NCBI GenBank assembly: GCA_029204225.1
Contig: CM055101.1
Coordinates: forward strand, 45,382,180-45,446,179
DNA from: Diphasiastrum complanatum
Lineage: Eukaryota; Streptophyta; Lycopodiopsida; Lycopodiales; Lycopodiaceae
Length of the DNA stretch: 64,000 nucleotides
Reading direction: 5' to 3'
The position numbers and the translations under genes were made by a program. This document shows positions 46-58,169 of this stretch, piece by piece. The notes below the pieces were generated by a model. It did no database searches and was not told where the DNA came from. It was given only the letters and a program-made list of their open reading frames with translations. How positions within the stretch are numbered: the stretch's first letter is position 1; every line of letters begins with the position of its first letter.

Positions 46-130
46 GGTACCGCGGATCAATATGGATCCACGGTACCAGTATGGATCCGCGGTACCGGAA
101 TCCGCGGATCCTGGTACCGCTGGATCTATG
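46..130 (+). mobile_element. Right end of a hAT-like element (word GGTACC), rest off-window
   Basis: An A/T homopolymer block is followed by four GGTACC words (46-51, 72-77, 91-96, 113-118) interleaved with three GGATCC words (64-69, 83-88, 106-111), and then CTATG at 126-130. The order (AT-rich core, palindromic words, CTATG) matches the ends at 11612-11701 and 44600-44696. The element body would lie left of the window. The next 8 bases, ATTCCAAG, would be the target duplication, which cannot be tested here. Confidence 0.55.
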
Positions 131-138
131 ATTCCAAG

Positions 139-639
139 TATGGTCTAATTTAGAAAGCATAAAGCATCTCTGAGGAGAATTTGTAACAATTAACAATAAA
201 CTAAGAATAGAAGATAAAAAGACGATCAAGATAAAGAGCCATAAGAGAACTCATAACAAGAGTTCCCATGAACCATATATTGGAGCCAGCCTAACTAAAT
301 GATAGCCAACATGCCATCTCATGAGATGAGCGCCCAAAAAAGACCAATGGTGGAAGATCTAGGTGTCTTAAGTTGTGGAGGCCATGTGCGAAGTTGTGAA
401 GCCAGTTGTGTAGGTCTGTGCCATGCGTATCAATACCTGGGAATATGGTCTTTGGCCTTGGTGTTTAAAATGAATAACGACTCATCCTCTGACTCTACCT
501 TTGTGCGGACATGAAGTCTATGTCTGGAGAACAAGGACGTAATATAGGACTGTTAAGTACTCATGTTGATGTTGCTGCCGCATTATATATCACTCCTCAG
601 ATGGAACATCTCTTGTACCATCAATTTAACTGGTCAACA
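139..639. other. Unassigned sequence
   Basis: No recognisable coding or repeat structure. The short open frame at 299-514 has no motif that I recognise. Confidence 0.4.
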
Positions 640-1250
640 TAGGATGTCAATGAGCGAAGAGTAACCAACTAATCATGAAAGCGATAGTAATACCCTCCTT
701 TGATCTCATAATAGAGAGGACATTTGAAGAAAAAATGTTCCTCTGTCTCAACCTCGCCAAAAGTACACAAATAACAAAATCTATCTTCTCGGGAAATACA
801 TTAGAGATGGTTATTCTCACCATGTAGCTGATGTGAGGAAACCCAAAGTTGCCCCCAAGTGAACTTGAGGGTATGTGATAATCTCGGGTCTAAATTATGA
901 GGTAAAATCAAGATCCCAACTATATCTCTCTCTAAAAAGTGAGGTTGAGAGCAGTCCCGAATGACCCTCACTAGTGGGCCCGCCCATACACTCTAAGTAT
1001 GTACATGATGTAAACCATAGTATATAGTCATGTACTCTCAAAAAGGTGAGATAAGGATATGCAAAATGAGTCCAATAATCACGAGACTTGAGAGTACCAA
1101 GATGAGTGACAACCCTACCAAGTATAGATATTCCACCCATTCCTCCACATTCATGATCAGTGGATTATGGAAACTCGGAAAGCTCCTTGAAGTTTTGAGC
1201 ACAAATTGCCTTTTCTACATTTCGATGCTACATACATTTGCCTAGCCATA
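640..1250 (-). pseudogene. LINE 3' relic (zf-RVT region), decayed
   Basis: Read on the minus strand, this stretch parallels the better preserved LINE tail at 58930-59300. Both carry a segment about counting intact frames of the reverse-transcriptase zinc-finger (zf-RVT) region and its downstream sequence, with matching phrases such as a run reading TGATCTCRTAATA and one reading CTCGGG near the cysteine-rich part. Many stops and indels are present. It is a 5'-truncated, old LINE copy; no function is expected. Confidence 0.5.
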
Positions 1251-1386
1251 CTTTTTATTCTTTCGATATGTAAAATATGTAGACCCAGGAATTTTCCTTC
1301 CATCATTTTCATATTGTCATTGCAACATAAGAATGTCAGTCACACTCTTGGATTCATAAAGATATTCTAAGAAATCGCAAACCTCC

Positions 1387-2165
1387 TTAGTTTTCTTTGT
1401 AGCTTGTGCTTGAGCCATTGCAATATCTCCCAAAGAAAAAGTGATAGCAACATATGAGAGAGTGGACATACGAGAGAACCAACCACAAAGAGATCACTTG
1501 AACTTCATGAGGATCCAGGCGAATACGACCGTTGGAAATGACAAAACCAAGGAAAGATATCTCAATAACTGCAAAGGAACGCTTAGATCTCTTGGCATAT
1601 AGAAGATCGGTAAGAAGGAGATGAAAAACGGAACGTAAATGGATAACATGGTTGTGCAAAGAAAGACTAAAAACAAGAATATCATCAAAATGAATAATGA
1701 CACAAGCACCTAATAAAGAACGAAAAAGATGAGTCATGGCATGTTGAAAAATAGGGGGATTGGTAACACCAAAAGGGAGAACCTTGAACTTTTACAAGCT
1801 AGAATGGGTACACAAAATCGGGATGCATATGTATCTGATGGTAACCAGAATGAAGGTCAATCTTAATAAAGAACTTGGCTTCACCCAATTGATCAAACAT
1901 GCCATCCATATGAGGAATAAAAAACTGGCTACGAACGGTGAGTTTATTGAGGGCAGGATAATCAATGCAAAGGTCTCTTAAAACCATCTTTTCTATCAAC
2001 AAGGAGAACAAGAGCACCAAAAGGACTATGACTAGGAAAAATATGAACTTGTTGTAAAAGGGCTCGAACTTGACGTTCAACTTCAACACGCTTAGATAAA
2101 CACATACAATAAGGAGCATGAGAGGGAGGAGAAGAACCAGAAAGCAAGTCTATATGGTGAGTCAT
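1387..2165 (-). pseudogene. Ty3/gypsy reverse transcriptase relic
   Basis: Three overlapping minus-strand frames read in order as a gypsy RT. First comes HIDLLSGSSPPSHAPY followed by SPFGALVLLVDRKDG. Next is LCIDYPALNKLTV and IKIDLHSGYHQI. Last is the catalytic box FDDILVFS followed by FLGFVISNGRI. The FDD/YDD box, GYHQI and LGFVIS are diagnostic of Ty3/gypsy pol. The frame changes twice, so this is dead. A primer-binding-site-like sequence at 2617-2628 on the same strand suggests that the 5' LTR side lay to the right and that most of gag-pol between them is deleted. Confidence 0.85.
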
Positions 2166-2616
2166 GTCTCCTTATGGCAGCAATGAAGTTGGGGTCTATC
2201 AAACATAGATGAAAATTCACTCAAAAGGTTAGAAAACACTTGAGGAACCAATATATTTGTTGGAACTAGGTCAGGTTGGGGCTCCTTCAACACAATGAGC
2301 CTTGGGTAGGCTAAGTATGAACTACTTACTAGAAATCAGCTCGTAATCCGGTGAAGAGTCAATGCTTGTCAAGGAATATGGGCTGCTATCATGAGTAAAT
2401 GTGAGAGTTTGCAAAATCTGCCTGCAAGTTTAGCGGAGAAACTGTTGCTAACTGTTCGCTAAAGATCCACTAGAAGATCCACCAAATTTTTTTTTTGGGG
2501 AATCTGCTCCTAACTTTAATGGAAGAATTGCCACTAATGTCCGCTAAAGATCCACCAAAAAATAGAAATCTGCCAAGTGTCGAGAAAATGTAGCACTCCA
2601 ACTAAGGTAGAAAAGT

Positions 2617-2628
2617 GCCTTGATACCA
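2617..2628 (-). other. Degenerate tRNA primer binding site of a gypsy element
   Basis: On the minus strand this reads TGGTATCAAGGC, one or two changes from the plant initiator-Met site TGGTATCAGAGC and identical to the site at 35928-35939. The bases just right of it (GTTAGGGA) resemble the LTR edge GTTACGAA seen at 52852. The preceding leader has phrases about CCGCTAAAGATCCACC, similar to the leader of the 47.7-53.2 kb element. Confidence 0.45.
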
Positions 2629-2639
2629 AGTTAGGGACT

Positions 2640-4529: not shown

Positions 4530-4718
4530 GCAATGGTGCAATCCGACCTTTCCGGTCTGTGGGACGAGGTAGACATTGTCAGGCGGGTTGCCGACAAGGC
4601 CAACAAGACCGGTCAGAAGATCGTGCGCTGCCGATACTGTCTCGTCGAGTTTGCTACATCCCTCACTCACCTTAAAGGCCATCTACTCGGTGCACGCGCC
4701 AAAAATGGTGCACCTTGA
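4530..4718 (+). CDS. BED-type zinc finger, N-terminal part of hAT transposase
   Basis: The frame reads LSGLWDEVDIVRR, then VRCRYCLVEF and LTHLKGHLLG. C-x2-C followed by H-x3-H is the BED zinc finger that most plant hAT transposases use to bind element ends. The frame ends with TGA at 4716-4718. The rest of the transposase continues in another frame from 4715, so one base was lost or gained near 4712. The start codon is unclear: ATG at 4440 and a later ATG near 4533 are both possible, and the upstream bases belong to the insertion border. Confidence 0.75.
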   Translation, partial: AMVQSDLSGLWDEVDIVRRVADKANKTGQKIVRCRYCLVEFATSLTHLKGHLLGARAKNGAP

Positions 4719-6414
4719 ATGCTGCCCCTTGTGGCAGCATGACCGTCCCCGACAGGCAGCGACTACTGGACACCTACGGGCCGCGGCTCGTGGCAGGGGA
4801 GAACACCATTTCGGAGGGCATTCTCCGATTTTGCACCGCTCCTTATGTGGCTGACCCAGAGTTGCTGCCTGCTTGGCTAGCACGCACGAGGAGAGGGAGT
4901 GCATCCTCCTCCGGTCCCTTTGCCCCTCATCCCCCTCAGACAGTTCTGCCTCACGCACCCCCATCTGCTCAGATTCCGGTGGATCCCGTCCCATCGCATC
5001 CGCTAGTTGCCACTGCGGTTCCACCACCACCCACTGTTGCTCGCACTCCACCAGTCTACGACTTTCTCATGGACTCTCCGCCACCCGAGCAGGCCCAGGA
5101 TGCTACTGGGCGGGCCTTCGAGGATGTGGAAGAGATCCCTTCTTCCTTCCCTTCCCATCCGGATGACCTCCTCAGCCAGCAGTTTTTGTACCCCATGCCA
5201 GATGTTGCCCCTCCACCAGTGCACCCCACCTATGCTGCTGCACCCATCCCTGCCAGTGCATCCCACTCTCCCCATTCCACGTCTACAGCCGATGCATCCA
5301 CCAGTGCCCAGCCTGTCGCGTCATCGTCCATTCCCGTCACGGTTGGTGCACCGTGCTGGAGGTCCACCACCCGTCGCCCACCACGGAGAGCCCTTGTGCA
5401 GCAGACCATTCGCAGCGCGCATCAGCCGCACATGGACAGAGAGGCCACACAGGCCGTGGCCAGTCTGATTTACGAGCTGAACCTACCCTTTGCCATCATC
5501 GACTCTGAGCCCTTCAGAAGGGCCTTCCGCCTTGCACAGTCTGTCAACCCTAGCTGGAGAGTCCCTAGTTCAGAGGTTGTCCGCACACACATGCTGAGGG
5601 ATAGGGTCAAGTCCTTGTCTAGAGAGATGGAGCCTCTACGTCGGCACTGGGCCACTTACGGTTGCAGCATCATGTCCGATAGCTGGACTAATGTCAGGAG
5701 GAGGCCGATCCTCAACATACTGGTCTCCAGCTGCATGGGCACACAGTTTTTGAGGGCAGTGCATTGCAGCAGGGGGGGGAGAGTCATATCTGCAGAGTTC
5801 ATGTTTGATGTCATCAGGTCTTCCATCCTAGCCATAGGCCCACAGCATGTCGTCACGATGGTGACAGACAATGCCATGAACTACATTCAGATGGGTGTAC
5901 TGCTAGAGGCCGAGTTCCCTCATATTGTTCATACCCCCTGTGCAGCCCACGACATAGACCTTCTGATGGGGGACATTGGAGCACTTCCCTGGGTTAGAGC
6001 CATCGTCCGGGAGGCCCTCTTCCTGGTGACTTTTGTCACCAGAAAGAGGCGTGTTCTTGCCATGTTCGGGGTGTTCAGCCATCTGGACCTCCGTAAGCCA
6101 GCCCCCACACGCTTTGCATTCAACTTGGTGGTCATCGACCGTTTGATCAGGTGCAGGGCCCAGCTTCTACAGATGGTTGCCAATGATCTTTGGGGTGCCA
6201 GTACATTTCCGCACACTGAGGATGGGGAGCACTTTTCTTCCACGGTGAGGGGAGACCAGTTCTGGAGGGATGCACAGACATTGTCAGGACTGCTTCGACC
6301 ACTCTACATTGTGCTCCGCATGGCTGACAGCGAGGGGTCGACACTTGGACTGGTGTATGAGCTCATGGACCGGATTGGACAGTTCCTGCAGCTGCCCATC
6401 TTGCAGCCAGAGAG
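4715..6414 (+). CDS. hAT transposase, copy 1 exon 1 (DUF659 catalytic core)
   Basis: A 566-codon open exon. The first 230 residues are Pro/Ser/Ala rich linker. The core from about residue 260 has FRRAFRLAQSVNPSWRVPSS, SDSWTNVRRRPILNI, VVTMVTDNAMNYIQMG, then TPCAAHDIDLLMGD, and the downstream RKRRVLAMF. These are the DUF659 and RNase H-like hAT core, in which the D of TDNA and the HxxDL motif are family hallmarks. The exon ends at a good donor (GAG|GTAAGC), phase 2. Unlike copy 2, this exon has no internal stop. Confidence 0.85.
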
Positions 6415-6528
6415 GTAAGCGGTATAGTGTTGTAATTGACCTTTATCTTTTCAGTACTTGCTAGTTTGTTTTTCTTTCAATGCTAAGTTTTCTCGTAATG
6501 CCCTAAACCACATGCCCCTCACCTACAG

Positions 6529-6808
6529 GATGACAGAGCTGAAGTTCATCTGGGAGACGCGGTGGAACTACTTCCACAGGAGTATCCACAGCGTTGCACA
6601 CATACTGCATCCCCTCTTCCTCTCTCCGACACAAATCGCAGACAGGGAGCTCGAGGCCGATTGGCTTCAGTACATTCACAGAGTGGGTCCACACATGGGT
6701 TTGGATCCTATCAGGCTTATGGAGGAGCTCGTTGCATTTCGTTTCGGCATGGGCACACTTGGCCACCCGGCTGCCCAGGATCCACAGAGGAGGCAAAGAG
6801 TGGTTTAG
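6529..6808 (+). pseudogene. hAT transposase copy 1, exon 2, truncated by rearrangement
   Basis: It follows a 114-bp GT-AG intron (6415-6528) and restores the frame as MTELKFIWETRW, HRSIHSVAHILHPLFLS. The homology to copy 2 ends at about 6795. From there to 6889 the sequence instead matches 9021-9114 from the tail-coding exon, but out of frame, giving a stop at 6808. The hAT dimerisation block is therefore missing from copy 1. Confidence 0.8.
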
Positions 6809-6889
6809 ATGCCCCTCCCGCAGATGTTTGGATGCGTGCAGCACAGAGTCATGGCCGTTACTACGACAGCACACCAGAGGAGGCACCTA

Positions 6890-7785
6890 CCTTCCGCCTT
6901 GCACAGTCTGTCAGCCCTAGCTGGAGAGTCCCTAGTTCAGAGGTTGTTCGCACACACATGCTGAGGGATAGGGTCGAGTCCTTGTGTAGAGAGATGGAGC
7001 CTCTGCGTCAGCACTGGGCCACTTACGGTTGCAGCATCGTGTCCAATGGCTGGACTGATGTCAGGAGGAGGCCGATCCTCAACATACTGGTCTCCAGCTG
7101 CATGGGCACACAGTTTTTGAGGGCAGTGGATTGCAGCAGGGGGGGGAGAGTCATATCTGCAGAGTTCATGTTTAATGTCATCAGGTCTTCCATCCTAGCC
7201 ATAGGCCCACAGCATGTCGTCACGGTGGTGACGGACAATGCCACGAACTGCATTCAGATGGGTGTACTGCTAGAGGCCGAGTTCCCTCATATTGTTCATA
7301 CCCCCTGTGCAGCCCACGGCATAGACCTTCTGATGGGGGACATTGGAGCACTTCCCTGGGTTAGAGCCATCGTCCGGGAGGCCCTCTTCCTGGTGACTTT
7401 TGTCACCAGAAAGAGGCGTGTTCTTGCCATGTTCCGGGTGTTCAGCCATCTGGACCTCCGTAAGCCAACCCCAACGCGCTTTGCATTCGACTTGGTGGTC
7501 ATCGACCGTTTGATCAGGTGCAGGGCCTAGCTTCTACAGATGGTTGCCAGTGATCTTTGGGGTGCCAGTACATTTTCGCACACTGAGGATGGGGAGCACT
7601 TTTCTTCCACGGTGAGGGGAGACCAGTTCTGGAGGGATGCACAGACATTGTCAGGACTGCTTCGACCACTCTACATTGTGCTCCGCATGGCTGACAGCGA
7701 GGGGTCGACACTTGGACTGGTGTATGTATGAGCTCAGGGACCAGATTGGACAGTTCCTGCAGCTGCCCATCTTGTAGCCAGAGAG
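6890..7785 (+). pseudogene. hAT transposase copy 2, exon 1, broken
   Basis: Same DUF659 core as copy 1 (SNGWTDVRRRPILNI, VVTDNATNCIQMG, HGIDLLMGD). CAG to TAG at 7528 creates a stop where copy 1 has glutamine. A second CAG to TAG lies near 7773, and a 4-bp insertion (GTATGTATG against GTATG) sits near 7727. The exon lacks the N-terminal BED finger and linker because the duplication starts inside the core. Confidence 0.85.
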
Positions 7786-8165
7786 GTAAGCGGTACAGTG
7801 TTGCAATTGACCTTTATCTTTTCAGTACTTGCTAGTTTGTTTTTCTGTCAATGTTAAGCTATTTCGTAATGCCCTAAACCACATGCCCCTCACCTGCAGG
7901 ATGACAGAGCTGAAGTTCATATGGGAGACGAGGTGGACTACTTCCACAGGAGTATCCACAGCGTTGCACACATGCTGCATCCCCTCTTCCTCTCTCCGAC
8001 ACAGATCGCAGACAGGGAGCTCGAGCCCGATTGGCTTCAGTACATTCACAGGGTGGGTCCACATATAGGTTTGGATCCTATTAGGCTCATGGAGGAGCTC
8101 GCTGCATTTCGTTTCGGCATGGGCACATTCGGCCACCCAGCTGCCCAGGATCCAGAGAGGAGGCA
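6890..8165 (+). repeat. Internal tandem duplication of transposase-coding DNA, copy 2
   Basis: This segment repeats 5523-6795 at high identity, intron included, with an offset of 1,367-1,370 bases. A roughly 94-bp linker (6796-6889) derived from the 9021-9114 region separates the copies. The 3' junction of copy 1 lies in a shared GAGGAGGCA, and the linker ends in GAGGAGGCACCT. Such short shared bases suggest slippage or microhomology-mediated rearrangement. Confidence 0.9.
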
Positions 8166-10749: not shown

Positions 10750-11157
10750 TCACTGATCCTCCACCGACTCCTCGCCCTCATCTGGTGCATTGTTTTGTCG
10801 CTCTTGCTCTGCCTCTCGGTTAGCCCGAGCTGCCTCCTGGTTAGCCCGACGTCTGGCCGCCCTTTCCCTGACCATGATGAGTTGCCGTCGTGTGAAATTC
10901 ACTCCGATCTGCTCATCCAGATCCAGCTCGACAGTGGGGACAGGACCCACAGCGGGGGCGGGTGGCTCCGGTTCCGGATTTCTCTGTCGAGTTTGTCGCA
11001 GCATCTCTCGGATATCTACCTCTTGATTCCGATGCCTCTCGTTGTGCCTTCGGATATCTTCCTCAAGCTTCCTCCTGGCTTCGCCCTCGGGCTTCGGTGG
11101 TATGCGCTCTGCCATCTCGATCGACCTTCTCCTCACAGCACCCTGGTCCTTGAACAC
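10750..11157 (-). CDS. Small charged coiled-coil protein, second gene of the hAT element
   Basis: A 135-codon minus-strand frame, convergent with the transposase. It is rich in Arg, Glu and Gln, with predicted helical blocks (RRKLEEDIRRHNERHR, VRERAARRRANQEAA) separated by a Pro-rich linker, and an acidic C-terminus. I do not recognise the family. It is unlikely to be chance, because a homologue with the same start (MAERI) and RRHNERHR block lies in the same position in the element ending at 56198, with an intron. A DNA-binding or transposition accessory role is only a guess. Confidence 0.6.
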   Translation of the reverse strand: MFKDQGAVRRRSIEMAERIPPKPEGEARRKLEEDIRRHNERHRNQEVDIREMLRQTRQRNPEPEPPAPAVGPVPTVELDLDEQIGVNFTRRQLIMVRERAARRRANQEAARANREAEQERQNNAPDEGEESVEDQ

Positions 11158-11159: not shown

Positions 11160-11611
11160 TCTCACAGCACCCTGGCTCTCAAACAGCCTCTCACAGCCTG
11201 TCACTGGCTCTCGCTTGCTCTCTCACTGTCTATCACTAGCTCTCTCACAGCCTCTGAAAATGCCAACCACAATGGCATTGTGAGTGCCTATTTATCCCCA
11301 CAGCCTGATCGGCCATGTGGATCCCCATCATCCCTCCATGTGCCTCTGTACCTGCCCCCATGTGATGCTCCCCCCTGTGTTGGTCTCCCATTGGGCCCAT
11401 GGTCTGCTCACCCACAATGCCCATGTGCCTCTGTACTTGCCCCCATGTGATGCTACCCCCCTGTGTTGGTCTCCCATTGTACCCTCTTTTTTTACACCCA
11501 AAACCCCCTTTTTTTACTTTTTTTTTGTCCTTTTTTGGTAGTTAATATGCAAAAAAACATTATTAAAGAAATATTAAAAAATAAAAAAAATATTAAAAAT
11601 GGTACTGCCCT
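11160..11611. other. hAT subterminal region with AT-rich core
   Basis: This is the probable promoter side of the minus-strand gene. It has repeated CTCACAGCCTCT phrases at 11160-11260 and two near-identical segments (around 11341-11375 and 11430-11475) reading CCATGTGATGCT with a following C-run. A poly-T/A block at about 11485-11600 leads into the GGTACC words. Confidence 0.5.
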
Positions 11612-11701
11612 GGTACCGCGGATCCCAGGGCGGTACCGTGCCGGCGGTACCACTGATATGGTACCGGCGGTACCATACCAGCGGTACCACGAGGTACTAT
11701 G
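11612..11701 (+). repeat. Subterminal word array GGTACC and hAT right terminus
   Basis: GGTACC occurs at 11612, 11632, 11646, 11660, 11669 and 11683, mostly as GGTACCGCGG or CCGGCGGTACC. The array closes with CTATG at 11697-11701. The same word occurs in the element ending at 130. Subterminal repeats of this kind are known transposase-binding sites in hAT elements such as Ac. Confidence 0.7.
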
Positions 11702-19040: not shown

Positions 19041-20839
19041 ATTGAGGATGCTCGGGTAATGAGGGTAGCAATTTGAGTCTTAGGAACATTAGGATGTAGC
19101 CAACTATTGGATGAAAGATATTTGACATAGCAATTGCACATGTACGATTGCCATGTGTTTACTTTTCGCCTTAACCAACCACAGCCACGTGTTTACTTTT
19201 CGCATTCACAGATGCTTACTTGTTGGGTATGTGGACTAAAATGGCCTGAATAAATGCCTGCCATAAGCACAATAAAATGGAAGAAAAGAAACACACAGGA
19301 TTTTGTGAGACGAGATGAGAGAGAGGAGAGGACAGCCAACCAACTCAATCTTTCCTCTCGGCTCTTCCCATCCATCCATCCATCCTTCTGCTCCTTCACT
19401 TCTTATTCCTCTTATTCTTCTATTCATTTTGTGATCCAACCCCAGTTTTCTTCGATGGAAGCCACCATAATCGTCCAGCCCGCAAGCTTTTTTCATCAGG
19501 CATGCATTATCACACCTCCTCCTTCTCTCAACCTGCTTTGCTCGCGAATTGATGACGACGTCGATGATGTTTTTGGATAATGCATTGGCGACATTTTCAC
19601 TCTTTCTGATATCTAAATAGAATTTGATTTGTTGGTGGGTAGGTAGTTCAGAGCCGTCGGCGATACTGTTTTCATCAATTCCAAGTTGGACGGATGCTGC
19701 TGCATGGAAATTCACTTGGTGGCGACATTGGTTATAATCCTTAATCTTCTTCAGCTCAGACATAGATTTCATTTGTACTAACAATAAAATTCTTTCACAT
19801 TGCTTTCGTATGGGTGGGGCCTTCCCTGCTGAATAAAAGTCCTTGCCTTGAATGCTGTTTATCTATCTCGTCTGTCTTGTGGTCTTGGGTAAATGAGTTG
19901 CATATTAATTATTCTCTAATCCTCACAATGGTCTTGTATGTTATCATCCATCCCCTGTAGGGTCTTGGTCTTGGGCATGCATGCTTAATTGCATTTTGCT
20001 GGGTTAAGCTGATTTACAATTTCAAGGACACAATCTGCAATATGGCAAAATTCTGAGCAGCTGAAATCAAGTATGAGGCAGGAGTAGTTGTGAATCTCTA
20101 TACGCAATAGGTAGGAATGTTTTGAACGCATGCCCTTGTCTCCACCTTACTACATAGGTAGGAAGGTCCCGAAATTATCCCATTATAGGAGAATGAATTA
20201 TCTATTTACGCTGAGGGCTCACTCTAGCAGTTTTCTTCAAGAAAGTGGTGCATCCGCTTAGAATCAAAATTTTCAGTTTCGATTGTCCGAAAGTAGAGTA
20301 TGATCACCGTTTTAGCAAAACCATCATGCTTCCACAATAGAAGCAACTACTTACCAATATTGCGTCCCTTCTGATCTCATGCAAGCTTCCGAAATCATAG
20401 TAATCGTTTCTTTATATAGCAAAAAGCTGAAGTATACAAAATCGTCATAATATGAGCTAAGGAACCGATAGAAATGTGGGGATATTATGTTAAAGTGCTT
20501 CTTAGACAATCGGTACCCTTCATGTAGTGGAAACACATTGCAATCCCAGACGATGTCTACTTCATTGATTGTACTCTTGGCAATCTTATGCATTGTCTGG
20601 GTACCCAAAGACATTAGTAATTCTTTAGAAGTGAGGAATGCAATGCATTGTGACATTTTTTTTGCACTCATACAGTTCACTCACTCATTCTCTATTTTGA
20701 GTCGCTAACCTCCATTCATAAGTCCACATTGGAGACAATCCAATAAACCTTGACATTTGTTGATTTTATTGTAGAGACAGCGTATGAACCTGATTTACGT
20801 GTGGCTACTCATTTGTTTGAATGGAAATTTCAAAGATGA
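19041..20839. other. Unassigned, possible 5' region of the PP2C gene
   Basis: CT-rich sequence with (CATC)n at about 19368-19384 precedes a short frame from ATG 19455 (MEATIIVQPASFFHQ). This could be an untranslated leader or a first exon of the PP2C gene 3.9 kb downstream. I see no family signature, and the frame ends at 19578 unless spliced. The long minus-strand frame at 19236-19784 has no recognisable domain. Confidence 0.25.
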
Positions 20840-20880
20840 AGGGTCCAGACGCGCGTCCGCGTCCGGACGCGTCCACCTTT
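20840..20880. mobile_element. hAT-like end fragment, word GTCCGGAC
   Basis: AGGGTCC is followed by GACGCG, CGTCCGCGTCCGGACGCG and a poly-T tract. The words match the element ending at 56198 (GGACCCT at its right side). No CATAG terminus is evident and the opposite end was not found. Confidence 0.45.
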
Positions 20881-21484
20881 TTTTTTTTCATATATTTTAT
20901 ATAAATATATGAAATTATGCTCATATCACTTTTAAGTCTTACTTGGATTTCAGTCAACTACTTGTGCCATGTCATTTTTTCAAAGATCATGAGTATTTTT
21001 TTCTTGTCATTTAATAGATGCAGCTATAGTTGTTCAATAAGTTTCGGCATTAGCTTCATCCCTTTCCAGCTTTTCTAGAAGTGCAAAACCACTTTTTGTG
21101 GCACCTCTTCCTGCTTAGAATTTTTTATTGGTAGTTCATTTGTATTAAAGCTTAGAAAATTCTCTTTTACACATGCAATTGTCTAATAGCATGTTCAATT
21201 AAAGTAGTAAAGCGTACAGCTAGGCATACATCACCTCTATATGCTTGAGGAGCTCCCTTATGACCCTTCTTGAACACTTGGTCTGGCCACTCTGCAATTG
21301 ACCACCTCTTTTCTTAATCTCCAAGCCAGCAAGGGAGCTCCTGCAGTAAGTTGTCTTCTTATCTTTATTTTCAATTTTGAGAAGCCAGAACGTACTGTAG
21401 GTTCTATACAATACGGTCTGAAACGTTTTTTCTTTTATTAGCTCTAAATTGAAATGAACTAATATAGTTAAGATAGCCATCAAG

Positions 21485-21615
21485 TATAGTTGCAGCGCGA
21501 TTCTGAATCGCGATCAGAATCGCGATTCCGATTCGCGATTCGGGATTTTCCCAGAATCGTGTAGAATCGAATTTTTTTTTTTTTTTGAAATTCTTTTAGG
21601 CAATATGGGTATCTA
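21485..21615 (+). mobile_element. hAT-like left end, word GATTCGCGA
   Basis: It begins TATAGTTGCA (21485-21494), one base from CATAGTTGCA. It continues with overlapping words GCGATTC/GAATCGC through about 21570, then poly-T, then GGCAATATGGGTATC (21601-21615). That 15-mer also occurs in the complete element at 27127-27141, at the same place after the poly-T. No matching right end was found downstream, so it is probably truncated. Confidence 0.6.
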
Positions 21616-21619: not shown

Positions 21620-23070
21620 TAAGATACAGCTGCATTTGATATACGGTTATCCATACTTGGCTGCTGAGTAATCGAACTAATATGCAGTAAAATATGTAAA
21701 CAAATGCTTTTTGATAAGCCAACTTGAAAAGTGTTGTAGAGATTTAAATCAATGGAGTTTAGATATGGAAATAGCTGCCAAGAGTAGAAAAAGGAATCAG
21801 ATTCATGGCCATTTAGTCCTGCTTCGCCTAGGCTACATGATTAAAGTGCCACCTGCTGGTCATGATCTTCCTTCTTCTTGCTAATACATTGAGGGAAGCT
21901 TGATAATACATTAGGGACGCTAGATATCAGAAACACTGGATGAGCGACCTCCATGGCCCGCCAACACTCAATTTTAGAAGAAGTGGAATTTAACTGGTCA
22001 TTCATGAAAGAAAAGGGCTTCATAGTCATAATAACCCGTATGAGAGGGTTCTCATATGTTTTTAACTAGCATTACAAATTTTAATAACTCTTTTGTGAGT
22101 TTTTGTATGGACTGCTAACAAAGGATGCTTATGTAGCAAGTTGCAACTGACAACATGAATTTTGGTGGGTCAGACTCTTTTGCTGTTGTTTTAAAGCCGT
22201 TGGTTTTTCAAAATAATCATGTAGATTTAGTATACTTTCAATTAGGAAGATCTGACTTTATGATGAGTAAAGTATTCATATTGAAGGTTTATTCTTGCAA
22301 TAACAGTAATAATGTTTGACCAAATGGGAGTATGGTTGGAATTATGCTTCTTCAGACAGAATTTAATCTCCAGATTATCCAGAATAAACTTTAAAACGAT
22401 CTTTCTGGGTTAGGGTTTCTTTTGAAGGGTAACCTAAAGCAAGATTTTTTTGCTGCAGTGCATATTATTGAGCTTAGACCTAAAACTATTATTGTTATCG
22501 CTTTGTTTGTCCTCAATTGACTGTCGGAAATCAAGCAAGCACCAAATAGTCAAGGTATGATGGTTAAGATCAAATGCATATGGTGGTTAAAATGTGGCAG
22601 TATGCAAAGCCATGAGTGTTTGCTAACTTTATGTTCTCCTTTCTTTTGCCATAATGTTGATTCCCCAAAATATTACACTTAGCTGATTGATGTTGGTCTT
22701 GTGATTTTAGTATCAAGAGATATCGGCATTTCAATTCATTCATATTAGGACATTTTGTGCATCACCTTGATGCAACTAATGTGTTGTACATGATTACCAT
22801 CAGTTGTAGATGTAACGAATTTATATAAAATTTTACTTTACTTGCTCAATGATATGACTAGAATATTTGACTGCAGCTTGTAATAGAGTGAGTTGGTTGC
22901 AGCCAGAGTTAGAGCTGTAAAATACTTACGACAAAAGAGAACAGTACAAGCGGCTGCTGTGCTTGAGACGTGGTCAGTGGTTGAATGCATTTATCTCTTC
23001 CAGAATAGTTCAACTACTAATATTTTCAACAGTTTCATGTTACATAACTTTTCCATAAGAGATTAGATAC
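21620..23070. other. Unassigned intronic or intergenic sequence
   Basis: AT-rich, with no convincing coding frame or repeat structure. It may contain an upstream PP2C exon, but none could be identified. Confidence 0.3.
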
Positions 23071-23077
23071 CTGGTAT

Positions 23078-23317
23078 CATAGTTGCATGGGGCGTTCCGG
23101 AACACGTTAGGAACTCGTTCAGGGAAATCCCATTAGAGTTTCCTGGAACATTCACTAAATTTTTTTTTTTGAGTTTTTGTAATGAAAAAGAATTTTTATT
23201 GTTTTTCTTTTTCTGAATTTTTCAAAAAAAAATAGTGTTCCGGACAGCGGAACGCTGTCCGGAACGAATGTTTTGGAATGTACATGCAGTGGAATGCATT
23301 CCGCTGCATATATGCAG
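23078..23317. mobile_element. Small hAT-like element, word GTTCCGGAAC
   Basis: The left terminus CATAGTTGCA (23078-23087) is followed by GTTCCGGAAC-type words, an AT-rich core and a second word cluster (GTGTTCCGGACAGCGGAAC at about 23235). The right terminus resembles TGCATATATG (23305-23314). The flanks CCTGGTAT (23070-23077) and GCTGGTAT (23318-23325) match at 7 of 8 bases, or CTGGTATC matches 8 of 8 if the edges shift by one. Three extra bases (CAG) sit between the terminus and the flank. Confidence 0.65.
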
Positions 23318-23359
23318 GCTGGTATCTATGCCACAGCTATATAAAGAATGCATTTGCAG

Positions 23360-23530
23360 GCCATCTTGGTCACACAATTGTCTTTGGTGGTATAGCTATG
23401 GAGCTGCTACCTGTCAAGGTACTGGACGCCCAGATATGGAGGAGACTTATAGTGCTATATTGAGCCCAAGGGACTCACAGCCATCTTTCTTTGGCGTATT
23501 TGATGGTCATGGTGGAATTGCTGTTGCAGA
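23360..23530 (+). CDS. PP2C exon: metal-binding motif and FGVFDGHGG
   Basis: Acceptor TTTGCAG ends at 23359, and the donor GA|GTAAGC lies after 23530, phase 2. Translation includes YSYGAATCQGTGRPDMEET and PSFFGVFDGHGGIAVAE. The DGHGG motif contributes metal-binding Asp and Gly. In most family members the upstream motif is RxxMED, whereas here it is RPDMEE, so the usual Asp is Glu. The exon starts 42 bases after a small hAT-like element, leaving little upstream intron. Confidence 0.85.
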
Positions 23531-41500: not shown

Positions 41501-44500
41501 GGCTGATGACTTAGCCATTTCAGTATTTACAATAATTGCAAAATGTACATTTGTCTCTGAAAACTGTAAGTAACTGGGACAGGGAGTAAAGGCTCTAACA
41601 GTAGTACAACTTACAATGTCCAATGATCTTTAGCCAAAGATATTGACGTCTGAAGTTTTGGTAGTAGAGGCAACATTTTTTAATAGTTTGACCAAGGGTA
41701 GAGTTAACAAAAAGAAGAAAGGGGGTCAACCTAGTCCACCTATTTTGTGGAACATGAATTGAATCGGTGTTCGGAGAAACTCAAAAGCATGATTGTTTTT
41801 GCTTCCTTGTTATAGATTGCAGCTTTAGACTAACCTTACATCGTGAAACCGACACAAGTGCTATTTTGTAGGTTAACTAAGCTAGCTACAATCGTTTCAG
41901 CTAAGTCAACTATAAATGCTTCAGATTTAGCTCAGATCTTTGTTGAAAGATTATTCAGGTTGTATGGGATTGCCGAGCAATATCATTAGTGATAGAGATC
42001 TGAAGTTCCTAGGTCACTTTTGGTTTCCATAAGCTTGAGACTTCCCTTAGTTTTAGTTCTACTAATCATCCTAAATCAAATGGACAGACGGAAACGACTA
42101 ATTAGACTATGGAAGATATCTTGAGGATACATGTTTCTCACAAGCAATCTCATTGGGAAAATTACCTCCCTTTGATAGAACCTGATTATAATAGTAGAAA
42201 ACATTCTACTATAGGTTATAGTCCATTAATTCTTATGTGCGGTTTTCAACCTAGATCTCCAATTAATGTGGAGATGAAATCTGTTAAGATTCAAAAGATT
42301 GTGGATTTCTTGCATCAAATGCAAGAAATGCTGCAATTAGCTCATGAGAGTATTTGTAGTGCTCAAGATAGGGCTAAGCATTATGCTAATGCTAAGGGGT
42401 CTCCTAGAGATTTCAAAGTTGATCTAGATTTTGTAGTTAATAACCTTGAGAGGGCCTATGCAATATAAGCATGATGAGGGGTATCAATAGTAACTAGTTA
42501 TGTTTGCTATACAGTCGGGATCCATGGCCACATGGACAGGCACTTTAGGGCCTATATAGGACCTTAGGAACTCACTCTCCTCCATGTTAAGCTTTCGGCT
42601 TCTGGTTACCAACTTCCTCTCCTCGTCTTCAAAAAATCCCTCGATATGTTCAATTTTCCAAGCAGGCCTACGTTTTGAATGCAAATTTTGTGTAACTAAT
42701 ACTAAAACAAAAGTATGTTCCAACAGAAGGACATTTGAAATGGGACGGGCCCATTCTGTATGTTGTGGATCTAGAGTTTTTGGATTACAACATCAATAGC
42801 ACTCTCCTTTGGTTAGGATAGTTGGATTGTGGAAAATTTTGGCCCTTCCTTGTATCACTTAAAGCATGAGTATGTCTATCAGAAGATTTTCGAAGCTTAC
42901 AACAATGCGATGAAAGTCCTTTTTTGGAATTCTGATTCTGATTTGCAACTTTAGCATATTCGTATGAGAAGGTCTTCGGGCGATATGATGCTGGATGCTG
43001 GTCAACAAAATGCTTTCTAAGAAGATCCTTTTTATGTTGTCTTATAGTTCTTGATTGTATGTTACCAACCAGCCTAAAGAAAAGCTATTCTAGTTGTGCT
43101 CTTTATGCTCTCTTTATCATGGCTGGATTCTGGCAATGACCACATTATTTAGACACCTTGAAACAACTCTATATTGATTATTGCACTATTTTCTCTCCCA
43201 GTTGACGCTTATCCTCTAGACCCCTTTCTAGGGCTTCCTATTGGGTATAAGTAGGGCTCTAGTGTCACTTTCATTTTAGCTTATGATATGGGTCTCTCTC
43301 CTATAGCCTCCTTAGTCTCTCTTTTTCTTGCTTTTTAGGATTAAGTCTTGCTTATGTGCTACTTTCTAGTTTAGTCTTGGATTACTTGTGGATCCGTTCG
43401 TAACTTGGCATCAAAGCACTTTCTTGAGCAGAATTTTTTTTTTTCTACCTACCTTCGCTGTCCCATCACCCTCCCTCGCTATTCCAGCACTCTTCCCTCG
43501 TTGTCCCTCCTACATTGCACCCACCTGGTTGCAGCTGTTCCATTGTCTTCTGCTTGGTGACTACCTACCTCTATTATGAGTTCTTGTGAGAGTCGCTTAC
43601 GTGGCTTTTTTTATGGCGTACCTATTTCTTGCTCTAGTTTCATTTCTCCTTCATTATGTCGGAAGCTCATTCTCCGACCATGAGTGATCACCCTCAGGAT
43701 GCTTTGATAGATCATATTCGTCAGGCCATGGATGCTGCTATTTCTAGCCTCTCTTCGTGTTTAGATATTGTCATGACAAATATTGCCTCATTTTAGTCCC
43801 AGATTGATGCATTACAGCCCCATGGTCCTGGCAAGGATCCTATGACGCCTATCCTTGGGACATCGTCGTCCTCCAGTTATCCTGGTGGCCATTTTGGTGG
43901 ATCTCCCATTCCAGCTCCTCCACCTCCTGGATTTCACCCCTTTTCCAGTACGACAGGCCCTGAACCACACTTTGCTCGCGATTTCCGTGACCGGATACAG
44001 CTTACTACCTATTCTGGTTCCTCTGATGCGAATCTTCTAGAGAATTGGTTTGCTAAGCTTGATACTTATTTCCAAATCTACCCTGAAACCGATGTTCAGA
44101 AAATCCAGTTAGCCGCCTTACATTTAGATGGTCGGGCTGTCACTTGGTGGCGAGTTTTTCGTTCTGATCCTGATCGAGAGGGGATGCATTTATAGACTAA
44201 GTCTCTCCATGGATCCGTTCGTAACTGTACACAATAGTTATTGTGTGGAAGTAAACAAGGACCTTGAGATGCCAATAAACCTCTTGTTTGTTGTTTCATG
44301 AGTAAATTTGATGTTATAGTCATAGAACCCACGGTTCTTGGAACCGTGGGGTGAACCGTACCACGGTTCATGAACTGTGGTACGATTCTTGTGATTAATT
44401 AATTAATCAATTAAATAATTAATTTTTTACCCTTTTCCCCCCAAAACCCCTCCCACGGATTTTTGGCCCTCAATTCACTGTTTTTGGCCCTCATTTCAGT

Positions 44501-47500
44501 GTTTTTGGCCCTCATTCTGGTTTTTTTTGGCTTTTTTTAGGGGTATTTTTGGGGGTGGGAAGGAAAAAAAAAAAGTAATTAATCAATTAATTACCATGGT
44601 TCACCACGGTTCTTAGAACCAAACTTTGTGAACCGTCCGGTTCACTCTACGATTCCAAGAACTGTGGTGAACCGTCCACGGTTCATGGGAACTATGGACT
44701 TATAGTTACTCAACTGGTTATGGGATTAAATTCCCTTAAATGATTTGGTTATCAAGGTATAGCCAGAAATATAGGGATTTCATTTTTGTAGTGATTAGAA
44801 AGTTTTTGTACTCATTGAAGTCCTTGACTAGATCATTTAAATTTTATAGATGAGTTTGGTATGTGCAAATGTTACAATACAAAATCAAAATCTCTTGAAC
44901 CAACAACGTGCCAGGATTCACCTTTTCATTTAGACTATGATCTAGTAAATAGTTTTACGAGGTAAATTGAAATGGCTCCTAAATATCAACTGACAAACAG
45001 GCACAGCCAAAAGGTTTTCTGGGTGGTTTAAGAGAACGGGGTTTAGGTGGATCCAGATGTGGAGCCACAGCTGCTACAGCTGTGCTGCTGCCTACAAAAG
45101 GTCATCTACACATACTTAAGCTGTTGTATGAGGCTATGCAAAGAAAGCAGATAGATAACCAGGTTTATTGAGCACTTGTCAGCTTTAGCTTATGGATCAT
45201 GTTTATTTACATTTGCTTAACTGTATGAGCATGAACTTTGTAAGGCATCTTAGATTTCTCAGTTACAGCTGTGGACCTATGTGGATAATGGATGTCTTGA
45301 CTTGCAATACCTCATGAGATTCATTGTGTTCCCTGCTGTGTGTTGAGATGGCAAGCGCTATCTTATATCTGCAAATGTTGGGGATGCACGTGTTGTGCTT
45401 TCAAGGGATAAGTGTGCCATTCAGTTGACGGTTGACCATAAGGTAAAATGGTGTATGTTTATGTTGACTAAGCAACTAATGTTTCTTTCATACATATCCT
45501 TTTGCGAGTTAGCCATAGCCGTTGTCTAGTTCTTAAGAATAAATGTGGATACTATTTAAGATTTGGAAAATTGCAACCCTAGGAGCTCTGAAATATGGCT
45601 AGAGATTGACTACATAGGTGTGTCACATATTAGTCCAGAGACATGTAAAATATGGCTTAAAAGTCAGAAAAATCAGTGTTTGAATGAGCAGTAATCTCCA
45701 AACTTTCCATATTGATTGTATTCTTACAAGCATAGATCGTTGTGAACACAGTGGGTAGTGGAATCAACTGCCTTCAATTTTTTGATCCGGCAACCATATA
45801 TGACAGATGAGAACAGATTGTTCTCACAGTGTCTGTTAGTAATTGCTACATTCAATAATTTCAGGCAGATCATTGCAGTATGGAGATGCCTACAATGATC
45901 TCCAGATCCGAGTATGAGTGCTCAGGCAGAGGTGTGTGGAGCAGTTTGCATGCATATAGAGGCTAACTGTGTGGCGGCGTTTGTAGCCAAAAGCGTGATA
46001 GTGGTGCGTGCCCCAAAATGCATCACTGCTGAAGGCATGTGATATACTAGCCTGCCCTCATGCCAGCGGCTGCTCTTCATGCTTAGTGCAAAGCTTGTGT
46101 CTGACGCCACTTCTATTAATTGGACCTGCAGATAGGTGATGCTGACAAAGATCTGCATCGCTGCCAAATTAGCTGAAGCCTGCATCAACATATCCACTTG
46201 TATTCTTGCTTGTTAGCTGCATGAAAAATGATGGTGGATAGCCGCAGTTGCACGGGGATGTGACTCCGTATGTTAGGCCAATATCAGGTGATATAGCCAC
46301 AGTAAGCATTCGTGGAGAAAGGAACTGACATGCACAGCATGTACCGCTCATGCATGAAAGCATGATTTACGTGGGAGGCTGATATAAGGAAGTCACATTT
46401 TTCCCTTGGCCCAATTCACACTTTTGCTTTGGTAGAAACAACCCCTTACCCAAGGATTTTACTCTTAAAGAGGGTGTCTTTGACGTTTTTGATGGATTTC
46501 TTTTAGCAAAGAGAACGTTTATCCAAGTTAGCACTAAGTTGGGGGATAGCGTTAGGACCTCAATATTCCCAGTATCTACGATAACCAATCTAGGGGCCAG
46601 AAACTTGTACTTGGGTTAATATGGCTCGATAGCCTCTTAACAGATGGTGCTAACAGAGAGTCCAAGTTTAGTGCAGTTAAGTAATTTTTTTAGCTTTAAC
46701 CACTGATTTATAGTGCTAACCAAAGTGTTCATGCTAGTGGAGCTGGACAGTTGTGGGGACTAGAATGGCCAATCAGTATTTCACCTGGTTACCACACATG
46801 GCAATTGTGACTGTGGAACTGCAAGAGAGAGACAGGCTTGCAAAATTTGAAATAAACAACTCAAGCAGTCACGTTGGAGGCAATAGTGTTCAGTAACTGG
46901 CAAGGGCATTAATGTTGCCTTGTTGTATTGAGTGAAAATTATTAATGCTAATAATTTGTAAACAAATTGTCTGATGCCCTCCTCTTCCTTGATAGAGGCG
47001 ATTCTCCAGTTCGTAATAAAATCATATCCTACTTGTAACTGTGTCTTCATTGCCTTCCTGGCATACGACTCCTGCTCTGAAGCAAAAAAGTCCTTGTCTC
47101 ATCCGACCTACAATTAGTCGATAGCATCCTCCACGCTATCATACTGCTATGGAAACATGCTATATCATCAGTTATCATCACTCGGCCTATTGCTTATGCA
47201 TTGATCAGGGCGGACCGATCCTTGGACTTTAATAAAGAATCAATACATCATTATCAGCTGGCTCATACAGATCATGATTACACACATATGATCAATAGCA
47301 TTATCATTCATAGTTCAGATTGAACCTATATGCCTTAACAGATGATAACCAATGGTTTGCATGAGCTCCCTCGTATCAGTGGCACATTTGAAGGCATCTG
47401 TCTTGACTTGCTTACACCAAGCGTCTATACCAGAAAACAGCACAACAAATTTGAGCTCAATGGAAATGTCATTGCTATTCATTGTTTAGCACTGCATTCC

Positions 47501-53500: not shown

Positions 53501-55724
53501 GGATTTCTCTGTTTATGCAAAATTGATCTCGGCTTCCATTGATGATTTCTCTATTGGTGAACACAGCAGGTTGAAGCATCATCGCCAGTGGACCGACATT
53601 TCTATGGACTTTATCCTAGGCCTCCCCCGCACCCGGCGTGGTCATGATTCATGTATGGTGGTGGTTGATAGGTTCTCGAAGCAGGCACATTTTATACCGG
53701 TTCGCAGTACTATCACAGCTGAGCAGTGTGCACGTTTATTCTTGTCAGAGATTTTCCGCCTCCATGGATTTCCTCGTACTATCCTTTCTGATCGGGATAG
53801 TAAGTTTACCTCTACATTTTGGACAGAGCTTATGCACATATTGGATGTTCAGCTTTTTATGGGTTCTGCTTATCATTCTACTGCCGATGGACAGTCCGAG
53901 GTCCTTAATCGGATCCTTGAGGATTACCTCCGCCATTTTGTTACTCCTTCAAGGAAGGACTGGGATCAACATCTATGTTTAGCTGAATATAGCTATAATA
54001 GCTCAGTTAGTACCAGCACTGGTGTCTCTCCCTTCTTATTATCTCATTGTTATGCACCACTGTTACCTGGGATACCTTTTCCTCTTGAGGATACGCCTGT
54101 TACACTTGCCTCTTTTCTATCAGATGCTCGCGAGCTTATTTCTCGGGCCAACACACATCTTCCGCACGTCCAGCAGCGGTACCAGACTTCTGTTGATCGT
54201 CATCGGCGGCATGTTCAGTTTCAGACTGGGGATATGGTTTATCTACGCCTTCGTTTTGCTCGACACCACTTTATTCAGGGCCATGCTTCTACTGAGAAGC
54301 TTGCAACACGTTATTATGGACCTTATCCAATATTGGAGGTCCTTAGTCCTGTGACATATCAGTTGCAACTTCCTTCTTCGACACGGGCCTGTGATATATT
54401 CCATGTCAGTTTATTACATGTTGCTATTGAGGATGACGCTCCTCGTGATGCTGAGTTTCCTACTGATCCAGAGTTATTTCCCTTCCTACCTGCTGCTATT
54501 CTACAGGTTCGTCTTCATCATAGTCGGCGCCGGCGGCAGATTCAGTTTTTGGTACAGTGGGATGGTCGTCCTGTTGAGGAGGCCACATGGGAACCTATGG
54601 ATGTGTTCTATCATACACCTTTGCTTGCGGACCAGGCTCGTGCTCTTGCTGCACTTATTGATTCCTTTGTTACAGTTGCTGATATACCAGGACCTGTTGC
54701 TTGATCCTATGCTGCCTCTTCATTTCATGGCGGGGCTTTCTTTTGTGTCGGGGAGAGTTATGGACTTGGCTATTCACATTCGCCACATCCATTCGCATCT
54801 ACTTACCGTTACCTTTTATGCATAAGCAGACCCTGGGCCTTCTATTTTATTGTTTACTGACATTTAGACTGTATGGTTGGCCTTGGGCCCTATTATTCAT
54901 TTATTGAGATATTACCTTGGACGGGGGCCCTCTTGGAGGGCGCACTATTTTCCCTCCCAGTTGACTCTTATCCTCTGGACCCCTTTTTAGGGCTTCCTGT
55001 TGGGTATAAGTAGGGCTCCAGTGTCACTTTCATTTTCAGCTTATGACATGGATCTCTCTCCTTTAGCCTCCTTAGTCTCTCCATTTATTGATTTCTAGGA
55101 TTAAGTCTCGCTTTTATGCTACTTTCTAGATTACTTGTGGATCCGTTCGTAACTCTTTCCTAGTCATCTTGCTATTTTTGTGGATGCTCTCTTCTCCCAT
55201 TTCATGTTGGTCTTGTGACCTCTTTCTCATCACACTTATGGTCTTCAAAATGATAGTAAAGATCTGAGATGCTACATGCAAGTCCTACTGTTAATCTCAT
55301 ATGCCTCATTAATGGTAAGAAAGGGTTTTTATGGAATCTGTGTTAGCTCTTGTAGACCTCTCTCGCTGATGAAATTCTATCGATGTATAAAGCTACCATA
55401 AAAATCTAGACATTATATGGGGCCCGGGTGTCTCTGCCGAGCCTGTCAAAGCATCTCTGCAATGTCTGCCTCTTGCTTCCGATGTCGTTCGTTGTGCCTA
55501 CGGACATCTTCCAAAAGCTTCTCCCTCTGCACACAAAGAAGCCCATCAAGCAATATACCATGATTAAAATAAACTATGAAAAACACAGAACAACATAAAT
55601 TGCGTGCGAACGGATAAAGAGTGAACGCTCACGTCAACTGATATGCGCTCTGCCATATCGACCGAAAGGGCCTCACAACACACTGGCGTCCGGGTACCAT
55701 AGGGTTCAGTCACTCCCCTGCAGG

Positions 55725-55773
<49 letters not shown>

Positions 55774-55805
55774 CCCTCCCTCCCTATACCCTATACCCTA
55801 AACCA

Positions 55806-55859
<54 letters not shown>

Positions 55860-55919
55860 AAGCATATCTCTCTTTCTGTTTCTCTGTCTCTCTCTCTCTC
55901 TCCCTCCCTCAACCCGATA

Positions 55920-55979
<60 letters not shown>

Positions 55980-55994
55980 AAACCATATCTCTCT

Positions 55995-56041
<47 letters not shown>

Positions 56042-58169
56042 TCTCTCTATCTATTGCGTGCATGTTTTGAGTGCGGTCAGACACGTATATTAAATATGCG
56101 TCCGCGCCGGACGCTGGACGCATCCAGCGTCTAAAAAAAAATTAAAAAAATGGGCGCGTCTGACCCCGCGTCCGCCCCGGACCCTCATGTCTGCTATGGG
56201 GTAACATGCATTTAACTGACCAAGGAAGGCCAAAATCTGAAAGGAGCACTTTAGAATCCTTTGAGATATTTTCAGGTAGGTGTATGCAGGTTATTTTGCT
56301 TTTTTAGCAAGTTCTGTACAGTTTTTTTAATATTTTCTTGTGTGCACCTTATGTATATGCTGGTTGATCACCGTAAAGTAAGCAAAGACTGCGTTATCCA
56401 GAATTTAGGTTTTGTACAGTCCTCATTTTCATGTTTGAAATCTTTCTCCCAACTTCTTACAGAGAATCAAATCCATTGGTGAAATGTATGGCAATGATGC
56501 TGATCTTGTTCACATGCCTGTATGTCAAACTTAAATCTCTTATCGTGAAATACTAGTTTTCTCTGCAGTGACAGTTTTCATTTTTTTTGTTCAGCCTGAG
56601 GTAGAAGCCGAGAGAAAGCGTATTGAGGCAAAGAATCCCACTCCAAAGAAACCATTGGTATAATCTCCTTGTTTAACTTTTTTACAATCGATTTCCAAGT
56701 CATTTATCTAATATGGTTTTTTTGACTTGAGTGCTCACTATATTTTTGGGTGTCGTAAAAACCTACACTTGATTTGGAATCGTAAAGAAGAATACATAAC
56801 TATGTAACCTCTTGCAAAAGCAAATCATCCTTGCCGGTAAATCTGTTGCATGCCCCCAAAAATGCATGTTTTAGTGTGTAATTCTGCTGAAAATAATCAA
56901 AACTGAAACTTTTGTGCATGTGCATGATTTTTCACAATTTTCAGCCCAAATAGAATGATATATCCTCATCTAGCGGCAAGTGTATGTGACTTCTCATAAC
57001 TCATTGAACTAGAGTTCTCAAAAATCCAAAAATGCATCCTTTATTTTGTGATTTCAGCCAAGACTGATAATGGTACACTCTGATCTTGTGCGATTCCCCT
57101 GGATTAGTTATGTACTAGCAATTTATGCTAGAACAACTCTGGCTGAACACTAAGAAGTATCGGTGGATTATATCATTTTCAAATAGTGTTGAATATAGCT
57201 CTACATAGTCTTTTGTTAGGAATGATGTCAAATGTGAAGCATGTCAGACCAGCACAAGATTATGGGTGCATTGAAGAACTCGCTTAAAAATACATTTGCC
57301 CTCTAAGCAAAACCGCTCTAGCTCAACAAGGGAGGAGTGTCCCTTCCCAAGTCGAGTGGTAGCTGCCTGTCGCATGATGAAGGTAGGACCAAAGAAAAGT
57401 ATCCCCAAGTAAGTGTAAGAAGAAACTACCTCTTAGGTCTGTTCGTCGAGATTGAGCTCCTGACACTGCATGAAAGCTCGAGAAGTGTTGAAGACCATAA
57501 CCTTGGTCTTCGCAATGTTCACCCCCAATCCCCATCTGGGGCAAAAGCCCTGTAAGCAATCCAGCTGCCTCTGTAGCCCCTCTCTGGTCGGAGATACTAA
57601 TACCACATCATCCACATAAAGGAGGATGGCAATCAAGATATTACCAAGTCTGCAACCAGCTCCACCACACTGTGAGATAACTCCAGCCAGCATGGTTCCA
57701 ATTGATTGCTCGAGTGATGTGACTTTTGCCTGCAATAGGTTCTTCTCATTTACCAAAGAGGCCACCATTCCCTTTTGCTGTGCAATTTCTTGCTTCAAAG
57801 TTTGGAAATCTACCTTGATCTTATCAATATGCCAAGCTGAAAAAAGTTCAGTTGATTTCGAGGGTGTGTACGGAATACTTACTGTAGGTTGTGATTCTTG
57901 GAGGGAGGAAAAACTGGCAGCAGTAGCATAAATAAGAGTGGGGAAAAGAGGAGCAATCCGGGAGGAGCAGATCCAGAGGCAGCAGTACACATAGCGGAGG
58001 CATCGGACGGGGGCAAGGGGTGCTGCCACACAGGCAGGCAGCGTTGCCTCAGCAGGTGCCTCAAAAGGTGGCAGCCCTACTGATGTGGCAGAGAATGCTG
58101 CCACATCAGCAGGAGTGTGGGTGGGGGAGCGGGCAGGTCGGCGGAGTGGCATGGCGCGCGTGCGCACGC

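Follow-up and report, generated by a model that had tools for sequence, protein, structure and literature searches.

How can a transposase change its binding site when dozens of sites in every element must change too? This question is raised by a 64,000-nucleotide stretch of the genome of the clubmoss Diphasiastrum complanatum (C10:45382180-45446179 of the 1.74-Gb assembly), here called the window, which contains hAT-type elements whose ends carry dense repeats of short CG-containing words. The word differs between elements. We use letters (A to H) for the ends and elements of the window cited in a preliminary description, and L-numbers for genomic loci fetched for comparison. In the three lineages that we read, word type and transposase lineage go together. 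On the basis of sequence comparison, it is probable that the words are subterminal repeats bound by the BED domain, and that they have diverged together with the BED domain of each family's transposase.

Word clusters at the ends of CATAG elements

We identified six clusters of CG-containing 6-mers in the 64 kb by an unguided scan (at least five occurrences per 130 bp) and none in any of five shuffled sequences. Of these clusters, five coincide with cited ends (46, 11612, 20840, 21490 and the right half of the element at 44326). The ends at 23088, 27020 and 56100 fall below the scan threshold. The sixth cluster (12087-12267, CAGCGC) is a word cluster without element termini and not an element end; it is made of CCAGCGCT repeats and lies ahead of open frames that resemble a long interspersed nuclear element (12.5-16.6 kb).

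The commonest 6-mer of each end was compared with 500 shuffles. Its count was reached in 0/500 for A, C, D, E and the right end of G, and in 1/500 for the left end of G. The excess is weaker for F (14/500) and the right end of B (29/500) and is not significant for the left end of B (356/500). The value for H (8/500) is uninformative on its word because the commonest 6-mer of H is AAAAAA.

Hairpin z scores are -8.9 for A, -6.5 for C, -4.7 for E, -6.2 for the right end of B, -6.6 and -6.7 for the two ends of G, -4.5 for H and -3.3 for F, while those of D (-2.1) and the left end of B (-1.5) are close to three controls (-1.3 to -1.6). When 1,421 folding windows were ranked, 12 of the top 30 overlapped seven of the eight cited places (F being the exception) and the other 18 lay elsewhere. 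Second in the ranking is 32986-33165, a repeat based on TAACTAAGTATCGTCTTAA that is strongly palindromic and poor in CpG; it is not a CATAG element. Observed/expected CpG is 0.75-2.47 at the cited places versus 0.50 in the whole window. The word clusters are real and lie mostly at the ends of hAT-type elements. The initial picture of eight ends that share a terminus, words and layout is partly confirmed; it does not hold for D and H, which lack the CATAG terminus.

In 360 kb of fetched DNA and two further pieces, we counted 20 distinct CATAG..CTATG elements flanked by perfect 8-bp duplications of the hAT type. Four of these duplications are low-complexity ATATATAT. CATAG and CTATG, short terminal inverted repeats of the CA...TG type at the ends of the paired elements, also served as the search criterion. 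We regard CATAG as the true terminus because F has a perfect 8-bp duplication and because A is completed with the duplication ATTCCAAG. Element A (right part, 1..138) carries GTACCG and GATCCG words, CTATG at 126-130 and the duplication at 131-138; read with the DNA just left of the window, it is a 249-bp miniature inverted-repeat transposable element (MITE) whose left end lies at position 1062 of L031. A first search with F scored copies at 79-100% identity (best 40 of 476 candidates), and in this first set a perfect duplication flanks 9 of the 12 distinct F-family copies with an exact right end (absent in L014, L015/L016 and L025).

In 8 of 36 end pairs, the flanks beyond CATAG are similar at p<0.05 (p=0.0017 for the best pair, A and the left end of B), but the idea of a longer terminus was dropped, since outside CATAG the flanks of F-family copies are unrelated. 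Boundary guesses made directly inside the window were likewise set aside, the duplication scan being ambiguous. Several of the duplications read ATATATAT, ATATGTAT or ATCTATAT, an indication of AT-rich targets. CATAG elements often lie in TATATA-like sequence near each other's ends (L062-L065, L037, L054, L068).

The two ends of an element typically carry the same dominant word. Six words were compared (GAAACG, GAATCG, GAACCG, GTACCG, GATCCG and GGAACG, with the GGACGC family outside the test), and the dominant word agrees in 22 of 24 elements, namely the 20 above, G, B and two G-type copies. When right ends were shuffled among elements, mean agreement was 8.5, and 0 of 10,000 shuffles reached 22. 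CATAG-family words keep a GNNNCG frame with a variable middle (AAT, AAA, AAC, TAC/ATC or GAA). The change is therefore one of the middle triplet, and the earlier wording that words 'switch wholesale' overstates it.

Words, transposase lineages and related elements

We identified autonomous copies at L062-L065, of 5,452-6,247 bp, that have duplications and GGTACC words at both ends. They encode a 672-codon DUF659 frame, and the next frame shows a weak match to the hAT dimerisation region; there are also a long tail frame and, on the minus strand, a small gene. The DUF659 match has an E value of 1.7e-40; DUF659 co-occurs with PF05699 in many plant relatives, and among named relatives a protein from Ceratopteris richardii is the closest (36%). 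A Cys/His pattern resembling a BED finger is seen by eye in L062, L068 and L069. Scored DUF659 matches are 94-96% identical, except for the window copy and its duplicate (best 75 of 18,625 first-look candidates, a figure that is not a copy count). The GGTACC transposase family is therefore young and abundant.

The window holds a copy of this transposase (L032) on the forward strand, with a BED-finger segment identified by inspection (4533..4711) and, in another frame, an open frame with DUF659 (4676..6418). The copy contains a direct duplication of about 1.37 kb (5523..8165), followed by an open frame that matches the C-terminal tail frame of L062 (8592..9773). A small charged companion gene of 121 aa lies on the reverse strand (10750..11115); its sole hit is a Diphasiastrum complanatum protein (84% identical over 92%). 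Neither CATAG nor a cluster of GGTACC stands upstream of the BED start in this copy, which lacks its left end. End C (11598..11701, reverse strand), with seven GTACCG words and the terminus CTATG, is the right end of the GGTACC autonomous family and is identical to the right end of L062 at 127 of 129 aligned bases. A near-identical second copy of the region lies on contig C19 (G000:C19 ~28781053-28805859), as either a segmental or an assembly duplicate. It matches the window at 100% in the transposase, 100% in piece E and 99.5% over 3,156 bases in F and its flanks.

The BED start is readable in 32 distinct GGTACC-lineage loci (35 loci, of which three were fetched twice; one further locus has no BED start), and in 28 of the 32 CATAG and at least four GGTACC words occur within 560 bp upstream. 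The four exceptions are the window copy, its C19 duplicate, L036 and L067, the last with four GGTACC words and no CATAG. The L068 lineage combines GGTACC and GGATCC words with a BED segment identical to that of L062 at 69 of 87 positions. In the L069 lineage, CATAGAACCCACGGTTCCC and GAACCG words (GAACCGTGG) lie upstream of a BED segment that is identical to that of L062 at only 36 of 87 positions. Shorter elements of the window resemble these autonomous ends. A matches the left end of L068 at 105 of 120 bases and L062 at 94 of 113. Element G (44313..44706, words 44321-44696, forward strand), which has GAACCG(TGG) words at both ends, matches the left end of L069 at 97 of 112 aligned bases. Its duplication-like GTTATAGT and CTTATAGT agree at seven of eight bases, with a two-base offset on the right.

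Elements E and F differ in their word over a shared end. F (26989..28020, element 26997-28012, forward strand), first taken for a single end, is a complete 1,016-bp element with GAAACG words at both ends, the terminal inverted repeat CATAGTTGCA and the perfect 8-bp duplication ACTCAAAT. E (21485..21613, forward strand) is a left end with eight GAATCG words, the terminus TATAGTTGCA and a core that runs to GGTATC. In the window, E is a piece that stops at 21613, and the scored copies stop matching at the same point: the 38 others are 95-98% identical, and none matches past query base 132 of 237 (best 40 of 1,699).

E and F have in common the terminus ATAGTTGCA, a gap-free block of 60 columns with 19 differences and the 15-base core end GGCAATATGGGTATC, and their alignment stands at z 13.8 against shuffles. 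We applied each of the 18 systematic one-base changes of GAATCG to E. Only the change to GAAACG raises the alignment score with F (+16, next -2), and in the reverse direction GAATCG does so (+16, next 0). Of 22 distinct left ends in the F family, 21 likewise give GAAACG as the best change. The end of L053, which carries GAATCG, gives the same result against F-family right ends (GAAACG in 10/10, and 10/10 in reverse), the right ends of L001/L002 and L011/L012 not being entered in this comparison. The L053 end has 39 other scored copies at 95-99% identity (best 40 of 2,462), and GAATCG families are large.

Variation inside arrays bears on how one word may give way to another. Across 23 left ends, the commonest one-step variants of GAAACG are GAAATG (17), GAAACA (14) and AAAACG (12), followed by GAATCG (7). 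GAAATG and GAAACA are the variants that CpG decay would give; GAATCG exceeds every other transversion variant (at most 4). The L037/L064 element has a chimeric palindrome, GAATCGCGTTTC. GATTC near the F terminus was considered as a relic of the E word and dropped, as GATTC recurs in most F-family left ends.

Co-evolution of the words with a DNA-binding domain, proposed from the window alone, is partly supported by these comparisons: three autonomous lineages differ in word and BED segment together, and E and F differ systematically over a shared core.

A probable reader for the words

Binding by the BED domain would account for these patterns as follows. Each family's words would be bound mainly by the BED finger of the transposase that the family encodes. 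The palindromic, hairpin-like layout could place two BED fingers on one dyad, and the many copies of the word would raise affinity. Each family would keep its own GNNNCG word, with a variable middle triplet, at both ends, and short non-autonomous copies would share their word with the autonomous family responsible for moving them. As a BED domain diverges, the whole array might be replaced, with copies that fit the new protein at both ends being amplified by selection; we infer both this selection and the order of events. Concerted change could arise from selection among copies, from template switching between inverted words or from both, and local copying errors may be the mutational route.

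We advance a more specific version only tentatively. A single clubmoss hAT lineage may have split into coexisting recognition dialects, in which the BED finger sets the middle triplet of GNNNCG and all words at both ends are rewritten when the finger changes. Transposases and MITEs of different families would then not cross-react, and mixed copies would be intermediates.

Several observations weigh against co-divergence of words and BED domains. Mixed arrays persist, with GAATCG or AAATCG alongside GAAACG in L015/L016, L020, L024 and L029, and the two ends of L020 and of L026 disagree in dominant word, so that the early statement that all words agree within an element is true of 22 of the 24 elements and not of all. 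The systematic-change test fails for L015, singles out no word change for A versus the left end of G, E versus B or F versus B, and demonstrates a systematic word difference but not by itself positional homology. The Dimer_Tnp_hAT match (E 0.0018, 18.5 bits) is below the cut-off of 21.4, and the protein of a full-length relative has no Pfam zf-BED match up to E 1. Only three autonomous lineages, of which two are closely related, gave both word and BED segment, with one copy each of L068 and L069, and the transposases that go with the E, F and B words lie outside the autonomous sample. The sample is biased because its loci came from the F and DUF659 searches, and its counts are not independent events because many copies are near-identical relatives.

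Ordinary divergence, the coexistence of old, separate hAT families that have subterminal repeats of their own, as expected, without any switch within a lineage, is a doubtful alternative. It is consistent with the differing termini of D and H, with the identity of only 36/87 between the BED segments of the A/C and G transposases and with the brevity of CATAG, a match of only five bases. It fits E and F poorly, as these share a terminus, the 60-column block and the core end and yet differ systematically in word, and the comparison of L053 with F-family right ends gives a like result. Unrelated cores in copies with different words, which had been named as evidence against co-evolution, are found for D and H, with their other termini, but not for E and F, while B is not clearly placed. 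The mixed copies, and GAATCG as the commonest transversion variant of GAAACG, also argue against long-separate families. Mutation bias alone, with template switching or slippage in hairpin-rich ends spreading one word variant without any change of protein, appears unlikely. Most ends do fold far better than shuffles (z to -8.9), the arms of GAANCGCGNTTC palindromes match in 22 of 32 cases against 15.6 expected if arms were independent, and in yeast the arms of short inverted repeats are homogenised by template switching between them (PMC8604942). But the arms differ in the other 10 of the 32, including the recurrent GAACCGCGATTC of F-family right ends and GAATCGCGTTTC of L064, and homogenisation is therefore weak there. 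Nor would this bias lead word type to go with transposase lineage, or leave GAATCG families at 95-99% identity among scored copies.

We consider it quite unlikely that a companion protein is the reader, with the product of the 121-aa gene near the right end acting as a binding or anti-silencing factor like VANC. Both the window copy and full-length L062 contain the gene, which has the 84% relative noted above. CpG is enriched at the ends, and VANDAL/VANC is a case of short motifs that evolve with an element-encoded protein (PMC5735166). Its 121-aa product matches no Pfam family, however, and in other hAT elements the subterminal repeats are bound by the transposase itself, as in Ac (AAACGG; PMC3260210) and Hermes (PMC10368747). 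The small gene may nevertheless leave room for a second reader of the words besides the transposase.

Known systems provide precedents for parts of the preferred reading, in which words diverge with the BED domain. In maize Ac/Ds, also hAT elements, the Ac transposase binds AAACGG subterminal hexamers cooperatively (PMC3260210). The resemblance extends to many short CG-containing repeats near both ends, to hexamer-bearing non-autonomous relatives and to the word of F, GAAACG, which contains AAACG. The Ac/Ds family as presented there uses one hexamer, whereas the CATAG-type elements use at least five words in a palindromic, hairpin-like layout. In Hermes, two BED fingers bind a quasi-palindromic pair of subterminal repeats cooperatively, and AT-rich sequence beside the site matters (PMC10368747). 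Hermes differs in being a single insect element with AAGT sites and no family of words. Ac itself has a terminus different from CATAG.

BED proteins of the CGGBP and hAT-19 groups prefer diverse motifs, usually with CGG or CGC, and four hAT proteins have motifs that match the subterminal regions of their own elements (PMC8097297). These proteins are likewise of hAT type and contain BED domains, and their sites usually contain CG and differ between relatives. That work is in vitro and mostly on domesticated animal proteins, and the part consulted describes no array switching. In Arabidopsis VANDAL elements, which are Mutator-like elements (MULEs), noncoding motifs differ between related elements and evolve with the sequence-specific anti-silencing protein VANC (PMC5735166, PMC10398659). 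A difference between related elements in a short repeated noncoding motif is also what we find here. VANDAL motifs are, however, tandem repeats read by the separate VANC protein, whereas the words described here are inverted, lie at element ends and are presumably read by the BED finger of the transposase. The present elements have a DUF659 transposase and 8-bp duplications and not a MULE transposase. Target duplications of VANDAL MULEs are longer than 8 bp.

A search of titles and abstract openings found no description of word switching in hAT elements, or of Diphasiastrum or Lycopodium transposons of this kind, which is not proof of absence in print. The earlier view that no such system had been described thus stands for hAT elements as far as this search extends, but not beyond them, given VANDAL/VANC and the diverse BED motifs. 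Subterminal repeats of hAT elements, diversity of BED specificity and co-evolution of motif and protein are each published; several such dialects within one hAT lineage would be a new variation on these. Word and BED domain can be compared directly here, since a single genome holds related families that differ in word, copies that are young and near-identical, MITEs and mixed copies. If the proposal is true, the families would offer naturally evolved BED fingers and sites that are mutually orthogonal, and VANDAL/VANC would have a counterpart among hAT elements.

The GGACGC family and other features of the window

D and H are not CATAG elements but members of a family that ends differently. End D (20838..20886) has GGACGCG words and is similar to H (56078..56193), which has GGACGC words and, by inspection, the termini CAGACACG and CAGACATG. 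H ends in CAGACATG-type sequence, and no duplication was found around it. A CTATG stands at 56194 but probably does not mark the end of H. A GGACGC-word element beside L068 starts with CAGAGGTG and has the duplication GTATATGT on both sides.

Element B (23070..23325, element 23078-23317, forward strand) carries GGAACG/GTTCCGGAAC words. Its duplications CCTGGTAT and GCTGGTAT match at seven of eight bases, and its right terminus has no CTATG. A PP2C-like exon, read by eye (~23394-23533), lies directly next to B, which is therefore probably intronic. We also identified integrase core and SH3 domains at 53226-54701, with a chromodomain match just under the cut-off, as in a Ty3/gypsy retroelement.

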